Shown one piece after another: positions 23,370 through 31,885 of a DNA stretch of 64,000 bases. Each line of letters starts with the position of its first letter. Position 1 is the stretch's first letter. The notes beneath the pieces are model-generated. The model was not told the DNA's origin. It worked only from the letters and a program-made list of their open reading frames with translations, and ran no database searches. Origin of the DNA: a bacterium. Its GTDB lineage: Bacteria; Krumholzibacteriota; Krumholzibacteriia; Krumholzibacteriales; Krumholzibacteriaceae. The stretch is taken from contig CP070727.1 in the NCBI GenBank assembly GCA_020350885.1, forward strand, positions 2,944,590 through 3,008,589, read 5' to 3'. Position numbers and translations under genes: made by a program.

Positions 23370-24785
23370 TCAATCCGAAATGATCGACTCGATCTCCTCG
23401 ACCATTCGGTCGACCGGGACCGTCTTCTGGCCGATCTTGGCTTCCACGTAATCCTTGCGATCCTTGATATCGACCGTGGTTTCCTTGATCACGCGCAGAT
23501 CCTTTATGGAGACCTCGCCCCGTTCGAACTCTTCGCTACCGGCGATGACAGCCACCGGCACACCGATGCGATCTGCATACTTCAACTGCTTGCCGATCGA
23601 TTTCGCTTTGCCCATGTACAGTTCCGTCTTTATGCCGGCGGATCGAAGCTGGTGGGCGATCCGCTGGTAATCGATCAGCCGTTCTCTATCCATGACCGTA
23701 ACGAGAACGTCTGCAATCGACGGCCGTGCTTCGACGAGACCCAGCTTCTGCATTGCGGACAACAGCCGATCGATACCGATAGAGGCCCCCGTGGCCGGAA
23801 CCTTTTCCCCTGCAAACTTCTCTATCAGGTTGTCGTACCTTCCACCGCCCATGACACTGCCGTAACCGGCGACTTCCTTCCCGGTAAGGATTGCCTCGAA
23901 GACGGGACCGGTGTAGTAGTCGAGCCCCCTTGCGATGCTCAGATCTATGACGACGCGCTCCTCGGATATCTCCATGGCATCGAGGAATCCGTTTATCTCA
24001 CGAAGCTCCGCGATTCCCTCACCGGTACCGTCTACACCGGCGAAGAGCTTTTCGAGCGTGCGTACCGTGCCGTCACGCGACTGCTGCTTCATTGAGAGGA
24101 AATCGATTATCTTCGAAACCTGCTCATCACCGAGGCCGAGCCCTGGAATCGTATCCCCCGAACTATCTTTCCGGCCTGGACCCAGTTCGAGCTTTATATT
24201 CTCGAGACCCTGTTTCTCGAGCTTGTCAATGACCCTGAAGAGGGCATGGGACATCCCCGTATCTATACCCGAGAAGATCGCCAGGCTATTGAGCACCTTG
24301 CGGCTATTATACCTGATCCTGAAATCGAGCCCGAGCCTCACGAGGCAGTCATGCATCGCCGAGATGATCTCCGCATCGGCCGCCATCGAATCGGTTCCCA
24401 CGGTATCGATATCGAACTGGACGAATTCCCTGAACCTGCCCGGATCGGGCTTGTCGTACCGCCAGACCGGTTGGATCTGGTACCGCTTGAAGGGGCGTGG
24501 AAGGTCCCGGTATTGAGCTATCACCCGCGAGAGCGGCACGGTGAGATCGAACTTCAGGCCGACCTCGCCTCCGTCCGGTTCCCTGAAGAGGTATATCTGC
24601 TTGCTCGCTTCCTCCCCGTACCCGAGGAGAATCTCCTTGTACTCGATGGCAGGGGTGGCGAGCGGAACGAAGCCGTAGGACTCGTATACCTCCCTGATCG
24701 CCGAGACGACCTTCTCCCGGGCGATGATCTCATCGGGAAGCAGGTCCCTGAATCCCTTTAGAATCTTCGGCTTGACGGCGTTCAT
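23370..24785 (-). CDS. hisS: Histidyl-tRNA synthetase
   Basis: A 471-residue class II synthetase charging tRNA-His, longer than the ~424 of E. coli. Motif 1 region LKGFRDLLPDE, motif 2 RYQIQPVWRYDKPDPGRFREF, histidine signature ARGLDYYTGPVFE, motif 3 with GGGRYDNL and GASIGIDRL, then an anticodon-binding domain. The motif 2 loop KPDPGRF resembles the alphaproteobacterial form (KPGPGRF) rather than the common bacterial RPQKGRY; this loop contacts the tRNA acceptor end in known structures. It lies 120 bp downstream of the tRNA-His gene on the same strand and probably shares its transcript. Start ATG 24785 follows GGTGGTGAT. Confidence 0.95.
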   Translation of the reverse strand: MNAVKPKILKGFRDLLPDEIIAREKVVSAIREVYESYGFVPLATPAIEYKEILLGYGEEASKQIYLFREPDGGEVGLKFDLTVPLSRVIAQYRDLPRPFKRYQIQPVWRYDKPDPGRFREFVQFDIDTVGTDSMAADAEIISAMHDCLVRLGLDFRIRYNSRKVLNSLAIFSGIDTGMSHALFRVIDKLEKQGLENIKLELGPGRKDSSGDTIPGLGLGDEQVSKIIDFLSMKQQSRDGTVRTLEKLFAGVDGTGEGIAELREINGFLDAMEISEERVVIDLSIARGLDYYTGPVFEAILTGKEVAGYGSVMGGGRYDNLIEKFAGEKVPATGASIGIDRLLSAMQKLGLVEARPSIADVLVTVMDRERLIDYQRIAHQLRSAGIKTELYMGKAKSIGKQLKYADRIGVPVAVIAGSEEFERGEVSIKDLRVIKETTVDIKDRKDYVEAKIGQKTVPVDRMVEEIESIISD

Positions 24786-24905
24786 CGATCACCACCCATC
24801 GTTCGTGCGAGGCCCCTCGACCATCCCGGGAGGATCGTACTGAGGCACCGGTATGGGACCGGCCGATCCTTCGGGATGAATCGATCACTACCGGAGAGTA
24901 AAAAA

Positions 24906-24979
24906 TACCGGCGTCGGGAATCGAACCCGAGACCTCCTGATCCACAGTCAGGCGCTCTAGCCATCTGAGCTACACCGGC
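24906..24979 (-). tRNA. tRNA-His (GTG) without G-1:C73
   Basis: A complete 74-nt cloverleaf: acceptor GCCGGTG with CGCCGGT, D arm GCTC/GAGC, anticodon arm CCTGA-CTGTGGA-TCAGG (anticodon GTG), variable loop AGGTC, T arm TCGGG-TTCGATT-CCCGA. Discriminator base 73 is A, pair 1-72 is G-U and the base before G1 is T, so the usual encoded G-1 facing C73 is absent. CCA is not encoded. hisS follows 120 bp downstream. Confidence 0.95.
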
Positions 24980-27529: not shown

Positions 27530-28765
27530 CTATACATAGATCTGCCTGAGCTCATCGATATTTCCAGCGATGTCGATAGAGTGCATGCAGCGCGCGGTGC
27601 ATTTCCGGCAGTCCGAACATGCCTCCAGTCCGCATCCCGCCGGAATCTCCGAGAGTGCGGCCCTCGCCTGGAGAAAGTTGGTATATCTGGCGGCATACAT
27701 GTGTGTCCGCATCAGGGTCGGGATGTCGACACCACGGGGGCATGTGACCCGGCAGAGCTCGCACTGCCGGCAGAATCCCATACCCACCTTCACCTTCTGG
27801 TCGGAGAGAAGCTTCTTTTCATCAGGTGTGAGGGTGAGGTCGCCAACGACCGAGAAGTCCTCCCGCATATGTTCGAAGGTGGTATAGCCGGGTACGGCCG
27901 TGGTGATGTTTTTATTATGCAAGACCCACTTGAGCGCTGCCGTAGCTATAGTCGAGCCGCTGTATTCGTCGCCGAAGTCGATCTTCGTACGCCTCTGGCT
28001 TCCGGCCTGGGTCTTCATCGCAATGATACCGACGCCCTTTGCGGCCGCGTTCTCGATCGCCGTTAAGAGCTCGGTATAATCGGCGAGGGTGAAGTTCAGG
28101 ACGGTGAGAATGACATCCCAGACGCCCGCCGATACAGCCTCGTTGATGATCCTGTGCATCTGCGTATGCGTCGTAACGCCGATATGCTTCGCCTTCCCTT
28201 TCTCCTTGAGCTTCGTCATTGCCTTCATGACCGTCTCGTCACTCGCCGTACCTGTGCTCTTCAGGTTGTGAACGTAGAGGATATCGACGTAGTCCATCTG
28301 GAGACGTTTGAGGCTCTCCTCACAGAGCCGCTCGACCGTCTTCGGGACATCCGCCTCCTTTGTTTCACTGCGGATACCGGGGTGGAATATCTTCGTTGCG
28401 ATGACGACCTTGTCCCGCCCGCCCAGCTCCTTGATCACCTTGCCAACCATCTCTTCATTCCGCCCACGCTGGTAGTAGGCGGCCGTATCGAAATGACGGA
28501 TTCCGATCTCGTATGATGCGCGTACCACCTCTGGATTATCTGAGTTCATAACACCCATACTCACAATGGGCATGCTGATGCCCGTCTTGCCGAGCTTCCG
28601 GTGGATGATTACCTTCTCGGTTTTCTCGCTCTTCGTATCATCCGGCTTCTTCTCCTGGGGAAAAGCCCGCCCCGTCAGCGAGCCAAGGAATCCCGCAGAT
28701 ACGATCCCCGTTACGGCCGTAGAGAGAAAGTTTCTCCTCGTTACACCCGTGTTCTCATCCTTCAT
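27530..28765 (-). CDS. Tat-exported aldo/keto reductase with iron-sulfur domain
   Basis: A 411-residue protein. It opens with a twin-arginine signal (TRRNFLSTAVTGIVSAGF). The aldo/keto reductase barrel follows, with FDTAAYYQRGRNEEMVG (catalytic Asp and Tyr), the Lys in KVVIATK and the His region LYVHNL. The C terminus carries two CxxCxxCxxxC motifs (CRQCELCRVTC, CSDCRKCTARC), indicating [4Fe-4S] clusters, so electrons may come from an iron-sulfur partner rather than only NAD(P)H. Substrate unknown. SD GGGAGG precedes the ATG, and a TATAAT box lies upstream. Export of a nicotinamide-family enzyme is notable. Confidence 0.88.
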   Translation of the reverse strand: MKDENTGVTRRNFLSTAVTGIVSAGFLGSLTGRAFPQEKKPDDTKSEKTEKVIIHRKLGKTGISMPIVSMGVMNSDNPEVVRASYEIGIRHFDTAAYYQRGRNEEMVGKVIKELGGRDKVVIATKIFHPGIRSETKEADVPKTVERLCEESLKRLQMDYVDILYVHNLKSTGTASDETVMKAMTKLKEKGKAKHIGVTTHTQMHRIINEAVSAGVWDVILTVLNFTLADYTELLTAIENAAAKGVGIIAMKTQAGSQRRTKIDFGDEYSGSTIATAALKWVLHNKNITTAVPGYTTFEHMREDFSVVGDLTLTPDEKKLLSDQKVKVGMGFCRQCELCRVTCPRGVDIPTLMRTHMYAARYTNFLQARAALSEIPAGCGLEACSDCRKCTARCMHSIDIAGNIDELRQIYV

Positions 28766-28846: not shown

Positions 28847-31800
28847 TTATCCCCGTTTTCCCTCAGTCAGCTTGTAGAGGACCGGAACAACGATCAGTGT
28901 CAGAAAGGTTGAAACGAGGAGACCACCGATAATCGTCCATCCCATCGGTGCCCAGAGGGATCCCCCGGCTACGGTGAGGGGCAGGAGTCCGCAAATCGTC
29001 GTTGCCGTGGTAAGAACGATCGGAGTGAAGCGTGTCTGGCCGGCCTCACGAAGCGCCTGCACCAGGTCGGTTCCTCCGATCCTGAGCTTGTTCGTGTAAT
29101 CGACAAGTATTATCGAATTGTTGATCACGATGCCCACCAGGCTGGTCAATCCGACGAAAGCCGTGAACGAAAAGGAATGTCCTGTGAGAAAGATCGCCAC
29201 GATCGATCCGATGATGGCCAGGGGAATGGCCGAAAAGACGATGAGCGGCTGCCGGTACGAGCGGAACTGGAGAACGAGCACTCCAAAGATCGCGATGAGT
29301 GCCGTAATGATTGCGCGCATGAGCCCCGAAAACGACTCCTCACGGCTTTCGAGCTCACCGCCGATCGAGAATCGGCAGCCCTTTGGTATATCGCACTCCC
29401 GGAGCCTCGCGACGATCCGCTTGGAAACCCTGTCGACCGAATAGCCGCCCAATACATCGGCGGTCACAGTGGCACTCCGCTCCAGGTTGTAGTGATTGAT
29501 CTCGGTCGGGCTCGCCTTGAGCTCTATCGCTGCCAGCTGTTTGAGCGGTATCTGCGCGCCGGTCACGGATGTGACGCGTATGGCGTCAAAATCCTCGATG
29601 ACCGGTTTTCTGCCGATGGGAAGGCGGACGACGATATCGTACTCCTTCCCCGTGGCATCATAGTACTTCGAGACGGGAATGCCCGCTATTCCTGCACGGA
29701 CAACGCGGTCGATATCGACAAGAGGGACCCCGAGCATGGCCGCTTTACCCCGGTTGATCTTGACATGGAGATCGGTCTTTGAGGTTCGGAGTGGATTGCC
29801 GACATTGACCGTCCCCGGTGTGGAATCGATGATGTGCTCGATACGCCGTGCCATTTCTTTGAGGTCGTCCAGGTCGTCACTCACCGCCTTGATGGCGATC
29901 GGTGCCTCGACGGGCGGTCCTTGCTCGAACTCCTTTACCTCGATCCGAGCGCCCGGGTATGTCTCGAAGCCCGAACGAAGCTCGGTAATCAGATCGGCCA
30001 ACTTCCTTGTATCGATATCCTCGAGCATCACGAAGATCTGCGCATGCGTGCTGCGAGCATTCTTGGGCATGACATTGTAATAGATCCGGGGATTGCCCCT
30101 TCCTACATTCGTCGCATAGTGCTTGATCTCATCACGGTCATCGAGGAAGGTCTCGACATAGCGGGCCACCTCGTCGGTCCGGTCGAGGCTCGTCCCCTTC
30201 GGTGTATCTATATTCACCACAAACTGTTTCTTTCCTGACTTCGGAAAGAGGCTGAAGCCGACGACTGGAAAGAGCGCAAGGCTCGCCGCAAAGATCACCA
30301 GTGCTATGACGATCACTCTCTTCGGTCGATCGAGTGCATATGAGAGGGCGCTGCGGTACCGCGTCTCGATGAATCGGTTGAGCCAGCGCCGAAAGAGCCC
30401 CGGCTCGGATACGGGGGTCGTCCTGAGAATCCGGCTCGAGAGGTACGGCGTGAGTGTCAACGAGATGAGAAGCGATGCCGAGAGGGCAAAGATCACCGTG
30501 AGCGGCATACTCCTGAGAAAATCCCCCGTCATGCTCCGCAGCATCGCCAGCGGCCCGAATGCAAGCACGGTCGTTGCCGTGGCACTCACGATCGCCCAGC
30601 CGATCTGGTCCGTGCCCTGCACCGCCGCCTCGGAGTTCTTGAGACCCTTTTGCATGAAGCGAGACACATTCTCGACGACAACGATCGCATTATCGACCAG
30701 AAGGCCCAGTGCGATCACGAGGCCGACGATCGACATCTGTTGGATACCGAAGCCGCTGGTATCGACGAACCCTAAGGCGATAAGGATCGAGAATGGAATC
30801 GCCAGCATCACGATCCCCGCCGCCCTGCTCCCCAAAGCGAGCAGAACGACTACACCTACGAGAATCACACCCTGAAAGAAGTTCGCGAAGAAACCGTTGA
30901 TGTTCGTTTTCACACTCTGTGACTGATCGAAGACGTAATGAAGCTCCATGCCGGATGGAAGTTGGCTCTCGAAGGCGTCGATACGCGGCCGAAGATTGCG
31001 CATGACACCGAAGATATTGGTGCCCTCCTTTTGGGCAAGCGTGAGAAACACCGCCCTTCGGCCGTTAAAGCGGGCACGGTACTGGGTATCCTCGTAATCG
31101 AATCGTACGTCTGCGACATCGTCGAGATGCACGATGCGCCCGTTGCGCGCATGAACGATCGTATTCCTCACATCATCGATAGCTCCGTAATCGCCACTCG
31201 TTTGAATACTGAATCGCTTCGAACCCATATCGATGGTGCCGCCGGGGATATCGGCGCTCTCGGCCTGGATCGCCCCTATGACCTGCCAAATCGGTATGCG
31301 CAATTCCGCCAATTTTTCAAGATCGATTGCAACACGGAGCTCCTGCTCGGGAAAGGCCCATGTTTCCACCTCGACAACCCCGGACACCACTTCGAGCTGT
31401 CTCTTCAAATTCTCAAGCTCGAACTCCAGATCGCGATACCTCGCATTATCCGAAACGAGCGCAAGCTGGAGTATATTCACATCAGAAACGGACCATTTGT
31501 GGATATCGAGGCTGTAGATACCGTCGGGGAGATCGTTGCGTATACTTGCAACCTTCTGCAAGACATCCGAATACTTGTCATCGGGATCGCTCCCCGTCTC
31601 GAACTCTACGGCTACTATCGCAAGGCCGTCCTCGATGTGCGACTCGATATCTCTCAGATCCTCGAGCTCATTTACGACCTCCTCGATTCTGTCGACGACA
31701 AGCTGCTCGAGATTGATCGGGCTGGCACCTGGATAGACGACAACGACGCTGCTCCCCGGGGCAGAGACCTGCGGATCCTCCGAACGCGGCATAGTGAAGA

Positions 31801-31885
31801 TAGAAACCACACCAGAAATGACGAGCAGGAGTATTATGACGACTGTGAATTGGTGGTGTTCGATTGCGAACCGAGGTAATCTCAT
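28847..31885 (-). CDS. RND-family efflux permease
   Basis: A 1012-residue inner-membrane proton-driven transporter of the AcrB/HAE1 type. The N-terminal anchor is followed by two large periplasmic loops and twelve membrane segments. TM4 carries GLVIALGLLVDNAIVVVENV, with Asp-Asn where AcrB has Asp-Asp, a common variation. It ends the tetR-tolC-adaptor-RND operon, 52 bp after the adaptor gene, so it should export drugs, bile-like compounds or metabolites through the TolC partner. Substrate cannot be predicted. Confidence 0.93.
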   Translation of the reverse strand: MRLPRFAIEHHQFTVVIILLLVISGVVSIFTMPRSEDPQVSAPGSSVVVVYPGASPINLEQLVVDRIEEVVNELEDLRDIESHIEDGLAIVAVEFETGSDPDDKYSDVLQKVASIRNDLPDGIYSLDIHKWSVSDVNILQLALVSDNARYRDLEFELENLKRQLEVVSGVVEVETWAFPEQELRVAIDLEKLAELRIPIWQVIGAIQAESADIPGGTIDMGSKRFSIQTSGDYGAIDDVRNTIVHARNGRIVHLDDVADVRFDYEDTQYRARFNGRRAVFLTLAQKEGTNIFGVMRNLRPRIDAFESQLPSGMELHYVFDQSQSVKTNINGFFANFFQGVILVGVVVLLALGSRAAGIVMLAIPFSILIALGFVDTSGFGIQQMSIVGLVIALGLLVDNAIVVVENVSRFMQKGLKNSEAAVQGTDQIGWAIVSATATTVLAFGPLAMLRSMTGDFLRSMPLTVIFALSASLLISLTLTPYLSSRILRTTPVSEPGLFRRWLNRFIETRYRSALSYALDRPKRVIVIALVIFAASLALFPVVGFSLFPKSGKKQFVVNIDTPKGTSLDRTDEVARYVETFLDDRDEIKHYATNVGRGNPRIYYNVMPKNARSTHAQIFVMLEDIDTRKLADLITELRSGFETYPGARIEVKEFEQGPPVEAPIAIKAVSDDLDDLKEMARRIEHIIDSTPGTVNVGNPLRTSKTDLHVKINRGKAAMLGVPLVDIDRVVRAGIAGIPVSKYYDATGKEYDIVVRLPIGRKPVIEDFDAIRVTSVTGAQIPLKQLAAIELKASPTEINHYNLERSATVTADVLGGYSVDRVSKRIVARLRECDIPKGCRFSIGGELESREESFSGLMRAIITALIAIFGVLVLQFRSYRQPLIVFSAIPLAIIGSIVAIFLTGHSFSFTAFVGLTSLVGIVINNSIILVDYTNKLRIGGTDLVQALREAGQTRFTPIVLTTATTICGLLPLTVAGGSLWAPMGWTIIGGLLVSTFLTLIVVPVLYKLTEGKRG

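Follow-up and report, generated by a model that had tools for sequence, protein, structure and literature searches.

A Linked tRNA-His/hisS Gene Pair Lacking the G-1:C73 Identity Element outside Alphaproteobacteria and Its Probable Horizontal Spread

INTRODUCTION

A G-1 residue on tRNA-His is regarded as nearly universal. Bacterial loss of this residue, which "likely arose only once" according to PMC3937112, serves as a marker in alphaproteobacterial phylogeny. A 64,000-nucleotide stretch of bacterial DNA (here, the window) nevertheless contains a tRNA-His gene without this residue, and the first-pass annotation noted that other genes there do not look alphaproteobacterial and proposed a second or transferred case of G-1 loss. 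The evidence assembled below supports the proposal, and of its two words "transferred" is the better one, because the histidyl-tRNA synthetase (HisRS) belongs to the clade of the alphaproteobacterial enzyme, the tRNA gene adjoins hisS, and the operon that once held the ancestral hisS no longer contains it.

RESULTS

The sole tRNA-His gene detected adjoins a divergent hisS

ARAGORN detects one tRNA in the window, a tRNA-His(GTG) on the minus strand, and reading by hand and by script bore out every feature that had been listed for it, namely, A73, G1-U72, T at position -1, and the anticodon GTG. G1 and U72 are positions 24979 and 24907, respectively (the other coordinates are given in Table 1). 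The acceptor stem is GCCGGTG/CGCCGGT, the D loop is AGATGGCTA and includes U20a, and the CCA end is not encoded. The templated G-1 facing C73, which is the canonical bacterial mark, is absent.

Table 1 Features of the tRNA-His/hisS locus (window coordinates)
Feature	Position	Strand	Remarks
tRNA-His(GUG)	24906..24979	-	G1:U72, A73, U20a, T at -1; sole tRNA-His found in the genome
Discriminator A73	24906	-	C73 in canonical relatives
Position -1	24980	-	T; no templated G-1
Spacer, tRNA-His to hisS, 120 nt	24786..24905	-	
hisS, divergent HisRS, 471 aa	23370..24785	-	TIGR00442, 387 bits; PF13393 and PF03129
HisRS Asp114 codon, motif 2 (VWRYDKPDPGRFREF)	24444..24446	-	Position of the canonical G-1:C73-contacting Gln (role according to PMC3937112)

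The genome that contains the window (G000; other G labels denote genomes of the relatives set) is a single contig of 4.13 Mb, in which RF00005 identifies 34 tRNAs, one of them for His. No second tRNA-His with C73, the gene that the first-pass annotation had suggested looking for, was found in G000 with RF00005, with a tRNA-His covariance model, or with an exact C72-C73 pattern scanned over every base; the pattern gave one match only, which is no tRNA because its T-stem is unpaired. Phe, Tyr, Cys, and Ile tRNAs are missing from the list of 34, so that the tRNA inventory of this one-contig genome is incomplete. In the script reading, a tRNA-Glu(CTC) (L022; G000:C1:3052544-3052615) also combines G1:U72 with A73, an acceptor end like that of the odd tRNA-His.

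Beyond a 120-nt gap downstream of the tRNA, the first gene on that strand is hisS, which encodes the only HisRS matched in G000. A simple scan found neither a terminator-like nor a promoter-like site in the spacer, a result that is compatible with a single tRNA-hisS transcript without proving it; co-transcription is thus an inference. The window HisRS scores 208 bits against human HARS and 108 bits against E. coli HisRS. The motif 2 Gln of HisRS interacts with G-1:C73, and in alphaproteobacteria that have A73, Gly stands in its place (Amrine et al., PMC3937112). The window HisRS has lost the Gln of the canonical motif 2 loop and carries Asp instead, not Gly (Gly123). Motif 2 reads FRYDRPQAGRYRQF in canonical relatives, WRYDKPDPGRFREF in the window HisRS and that of G011, WRADKPDKGRFREF in G045, and FR[VI]DKPGAGRFREF in four f6 genomes, which are Gly-type members of the same class.

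Two inspections by eye concern neighboring genes. At 27530-28765 and 28847-31885 of the window, on the minus strand, a gene for an aldo/keto reductase with a Tat signal and a ferredoxin-like end lies beside an AcrB-type RND pump gene, and in G011 (L036) the translated frame that follows tRNA-His-hisS resembles histidine ammonia-lyase.

Within the phylum, the pair is rare and the canonical hisS is missing from its operon

Of 80 genomes from the window's phylum, only 7 contain the A73-type tRNA-His pattern, and these are exactly the 7 in which the divergent HisRS was found. Two kinds of HisRS occur among 58 genomes of the relatives set, a window-like kind in 7 and a canonical kind in nearly all others. 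Identity to the window enzyme is 65% for G011 and 43 to 47% for G045, G032, G028, G039, and G035; canonical enzymes are about one third identical to it, along partial stretches only. A tRNA-His gene was observed directly upstream of hisS in all seven A73 genomes of the class, compared with none of the 23 canonical HisRS loci examined. All seven of these hisS-linked tRNAs possess G1:U72 and A73; the tRNA-His of canonical relatives possesses G-1, G1:C72, and C73. The recurrence of the G1:U72/A73 tRNA in the same arrangement in six more genomes of the class rules out chance and a sequencing slip. The body of the window tRNA is closest to that of G011 and to A73 tRNAs from other phyla (92%), whereas the best same-phylum canonical tRNA-His reaches 83%.

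The former location of the canonical gene can still be recognized. In G006, G007, and G013, a canonical hisS is part of an operon with the order amidase-YbbR-phosphonate-binding-like (PBP)-VanZ-hisS-aspS-LysM-PhoH. G000 and G011 have the same operon genes in the same order, except that hisS is missing between VanZ and aspS, which in G000 are about 43 bases apart. The series YbbR-VanZ-aspS-LysM-PhoH is likewise in order and without hisS in G028, G032, and G035, so that the ancestral gene is cleanly absent from the VanZ-aspS site in 5/5 A73 genomes checked. By contig coordinates, the window hisS is about 2.7 Mb from that site. An operon without hisS together with a distant new hisS is the trace expected when a resident gene has been replaced by an unlinked newcomer.

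The pair extends to nine or more phyla besides Alphaproteobacteria

A single scan over named genomes yielded 80 HisRS loci; tRNA-His was read at the locus itself or elsewhere in the same genome. The observed covariation between enzyme and tRNA is strong: each of the 51 G1:U72/A73 tRNA-His genes that were read pairs with a HisRS that has Gly, Asp, Ala, or His for the Gln (one of the 51 motifs, left unparsed by the script, reads FRVNKPGPGRFRQF), and 12 of 13 Gln-type enzymes pair with a G1:C72/C73 tRNA-His. The C72-C73 pattern detected no canonical tRNA-His in the 46 genomes scanned with it. T occupies position -1 in 39 of the 51 A73 tRNAs. No special meaning is attached to it, since T is also the most frequent -1 base in the subset of the remaining G000 tRNAs that was parsed.

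In linked loci outside the phylum, tRNA-His usually precedes hisS on the same strand by 1 to 278 nt. Such loci were found in Acidobacteriota, Planctomycetota, Zixibacteria, Bacteroidota, Hydrogenedentota, Marinimicrobia, Nitrospirota, Actinomycetota, and one alphaproteobacterium (L127); in an Ignavibacteriota pair, the two genes are 2.5 kb apart. Alphaproteobacteria aside, the gene pair thus occurs in no fewer than nine phyla, and linked loci belong to about ten phyla in all. Linkage is not universal, however, because in 23 of the 51 sampled A73 cases (Hydrogenedentota, most Alphaproteobacteria, and some Acidobacteriota) tRNA-His lies away from hisS. Across a spread of Acidobacteriota, our own count gives the A73 type in 5 of 75 genomes with a match, a minority that makes for a patchy distribution. 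The comparison genomes are mostly MAGs, some of them mislabelled; for example, L102 carries a Nitrospiraceae label, yet RpoB groups it with Hydrogenedentota. The window locus yielded no identifiable mobile element, and no viral contigs encoding A73-type HisRS were found; plasmid matches of this HisRS are to alphaproteobacterial replicons, mostly very large ones (>0.5 Mb).

Several loci depart from these patterns. The HisRSs of L092 and L140 belong to the A73 clade described below but break the rule, as their tRNA-His combines C1:G72 with A73. In these cases (L092 for the HisRS, with L197, and L140:4834-4908) T is at -1 and the motif is RYDKPEPGRF or RYEIKLLPGRF; the L140 tRNA is linked to hisS. 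Patescibacteria with Gln-type HisRS supply further departures (tRNA-His at L103:6398-6474, L104:6402-6478, and L125:6470-6545). A tRNA-His of Buchananbacteria (Patescibacteria) has C73 yet C, not G, at -1, and that of another Patescibacteria bin, also with Gln-type HisRS, has A73 with G1:C72. On a contig labelled as a Thermoplasmata archaeon, a HisRS (L101:2396-3874) nested in the bacterial A73 clade is followed, about 2 kb past it, by a tRNA-His (L101:6070-6142) that has A73 at its end and C as its -1 base; this could reflect either transfer to archaea or a binning error.

The HisRS phylogeny departs from the species phylogeny

In a HisRS tree of 75 rows, one clade of 51 rows (100/98) holds every enzyme of the G1:U72/A73 type, and Gln-type HisRS and human HARS1 fall outside it. 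The alphaproteobacterial enzymes are nested within this clade, beside two Actinomycetota (100/99), on a branch separate from that of the window HisRS. Enzymes of the window's phylum were observed in three places: one group joins Zixibacteria and a Bacteroidetes bin, that of G045 falls within Acidobacteriota, and the f6 enzymes form a branch of their own. Forcing the A73 HisRSs of this phylum into one clade was rejected (p-AU 2.8e-5), as was forcing the alphaproteobacterial and human enzymes together (p-AU 6.9e-6). Both constrained groups were picked with the tree in view, eukaryotes are represented by one row on a long branch, and the reference rows contain only the aligned parts, taken from HMMER output.

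In an RpoB tree, by contrast, G000, G011, G045, and G035 form one clade, so that the history of HisRS differs from that of the species. The RpoB neighbors of the window's phylum are Gemmatimonadota, Zixibacteria, Marinimicrobia, and Ignavibacteria. The window genome thus belongs to an FCB-like phylum, and its distance from three Alphaproteobacteria upholds the first-pass judgment of the host. The adjoining hisS, at least three acquisitions within one phylum, and the range over many phyla had escaped that annotation.

DISCUSSION

Displacement of the canonical pair and its alternatives

The explanation that we prefer, with a probability of roughly 0.85, is horizontal spread of a linked, orthogonal tRNA-His/HisRS pair that took the place of the canonical one. 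The tRNA and the hisS behind it would constitute a matched, self-contained histidine pair. By analogy with tested alphaproteobacterial enzymes, a HisRS without the motif 2 Gln would instead read G1:U72, A73, and the anticodon, in which case the tRNA needs neither G-1 nor C73, and there is apparently no Thg1 to add G-1. Alphaproteobacterial HisRS recognizes G1:U72 and A73 (PMC7590224), and the C. crescentus enzyme reads the anticodon as well; for the window pair, charging through G1:U72/A73 remains an inference. Because the two genes adjoin, they can move together, although joint transfer of tRNA and hisS is likewise inferred. Once acquired, the pair would have taken over histidine decoding, after which the resident tRNA-His (G-1:C73) and the canonical hisS, formerly between VanZ and aspS, would have been lost. 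An enzyme with its own tRNA alongside would enter a new host with its substrate already at hand, and little cross-reaction of either half with the resident pair is expected, given that the pairs of E. coli and C. crescentus are mutually orthogonal (PMC3875453). Poor cross-reaction, with the substrate supplied, would make the swap possible without a mistranslating intermediate. As part of this explanation, the A73-type pair entered the window's phylum at least three times.

The main competitor is in-situ change, in which the genome's own tRNA-His lost G-1 and gained A73 and U72 stepwise while a foreign HisRS was accommodated and no tRNA was transferred. Ardell and Andersson reportedly put forward a stepwise in-situ model of this kind for Alphaproteobacteria. 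The tRNA is unlinked to hisS in many A73 genomes, so that this HisRS can exist apart from it, and tRNAs are so short that likeness is weak evidence of descent. Set against these points are the linkage, found in 7/7 genomes of the class and across about ten phyla, the greater similarity of the window tRNA body to foreign-phylum A73 tRNAs than to canonical tRNAs of its own phylum, and the fact that U72 accompanies A73 every time in the G1:U72/A73 type; in-situ change is therefore improbable, though not negligible. Convergence, with the alphaproteobacterial and other A73 systems arising by separate transfers of a eukaryotic HisRS, would account for the eukaryote-like A73 and for the higher score of the window enzyme against human HARS than against its E. 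coli counterpart, but it conflicts with the single bacterial clade that excludes human HARS1 and with the rejected alphaproteobacterial-human grouping. Even granting that both results depend on one long-branch eukaryotic row, convergence appears very unlikely.

Two further possibilities carry still less weight. In eukaryotes, tRNA-His likewise carries A73, and its G-1 is added once transcription is complete (PMC4284800); a Thg1-type enzyme might do the same opposite the A73 of the window tRNA, whose mature 5' end at G1 is inferred, with no measurement. Such addition is highly unlikely: PF04446 (Thg1) has no match in G000, whereas the positive control, Methanosarcina acetivorans, was matched; the alphaproteobacterial counterpart is reported to be without G-1 (PMC4284800, PMC3875453); and the Gln that contacts G-1:C73 is gone from motif 2. 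That the locus is a binning contaminant, as the rarity of the type in the phylum (7/80) might suggest, is scarcely credible given that it lies inside a one-contig genome whose sole HisRS and sole tRNA-His are both found there, that seven genomes have the arrangement in common, and that canonical hisS is missing from the operon site in five. Horizontal displacement thus remains the preferred reading.

A wider proposal, toward which we lean only modestly, is that the G-1-less identity did not originate in Alphaproteobacteria but belongs to an old, portable tRNA-His-hisS unit that brings an identity rule of its own, has passed among ten or so phyla, has repeatedly displaced the canonical pair, and gave rise to the alphaproteobacterial exception. 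Which way transfer ran between Alphaproteobacteria and other phyla is inferred solely from the nesting in the tree and is accordingly provisional. If the pair moves between phyla, a phylogenetic marker is transferable, and the origin of the alphaproteobacterial case changes. If true, displacement also offers a natural experiment with several swaps of an entire tRNA identity rule, the operon before and after being still visible, and genetic-code work gains many new candidates for orthogonal HisRS/tRNA-His pairs. What is new here is the A73 pair in a new lineage and in a linked arrangement. Later literature mentions bacterial G-1 loss only in Alphaproteobacteria (PMC3937112, PMC5370408, PMC7590224, PMC4284800); the founding papers were outside the scope of this comparison, and earlier notice of G-1-less tRNA-His in other bacteria cannot be excluded.

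Comparison with known systems

The closest known system is the alphaproteobacterial pair (RRCH clade, Caulobacter crescentus), with which the window pair shares A73, U72, the lack of a templated G-1 and of Thg1, a HisRS without the motif 2 Gln, and the HisRS clade. Alphaproteobacterial tRNA-His is also said to contain U20a (Yuan et al., 2011), as the window tRNA does. Conversely, the window host is not alphaproteobacterial, its motif 2 has Asp rather than Gly, and its tRNA and hisS are adjacent, an arrangement that L127 alone shows among the sampled Alphaproteobacteria. With neither the motif 2 Gly nor an alphaproteobacterial host, the window pair is a variant of the alphaproteobacterial kind. 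The canonical tRNA-His/HisRS of E. coli, G006, G007, and G013 agrees with it in anticodon, fold, and the TIGR00442 family; the window pair differs in lacking G-1, C73, and the Gln, in its low and partial HisRS identity, and in its genomic place. Eukaryotic tRNA-His/HARS resembles it in A73 and, somewhat more than the E. coli enzyme, in HisRS sequence, but there G-1 is mostly added by Thg1, and human HARS1 lies outside the bacterial A73 clade. Finally, the TrpRS-A/tRNA-Trp(A73) operon of candidate-phylum bacteria is likewise a linked tRNA-synthetase pair with a non-standard identity and is thought to have spread laterally (PMC5370408); it serves another amino acid and can coexist with a canonical pair, which the window genome has lost.
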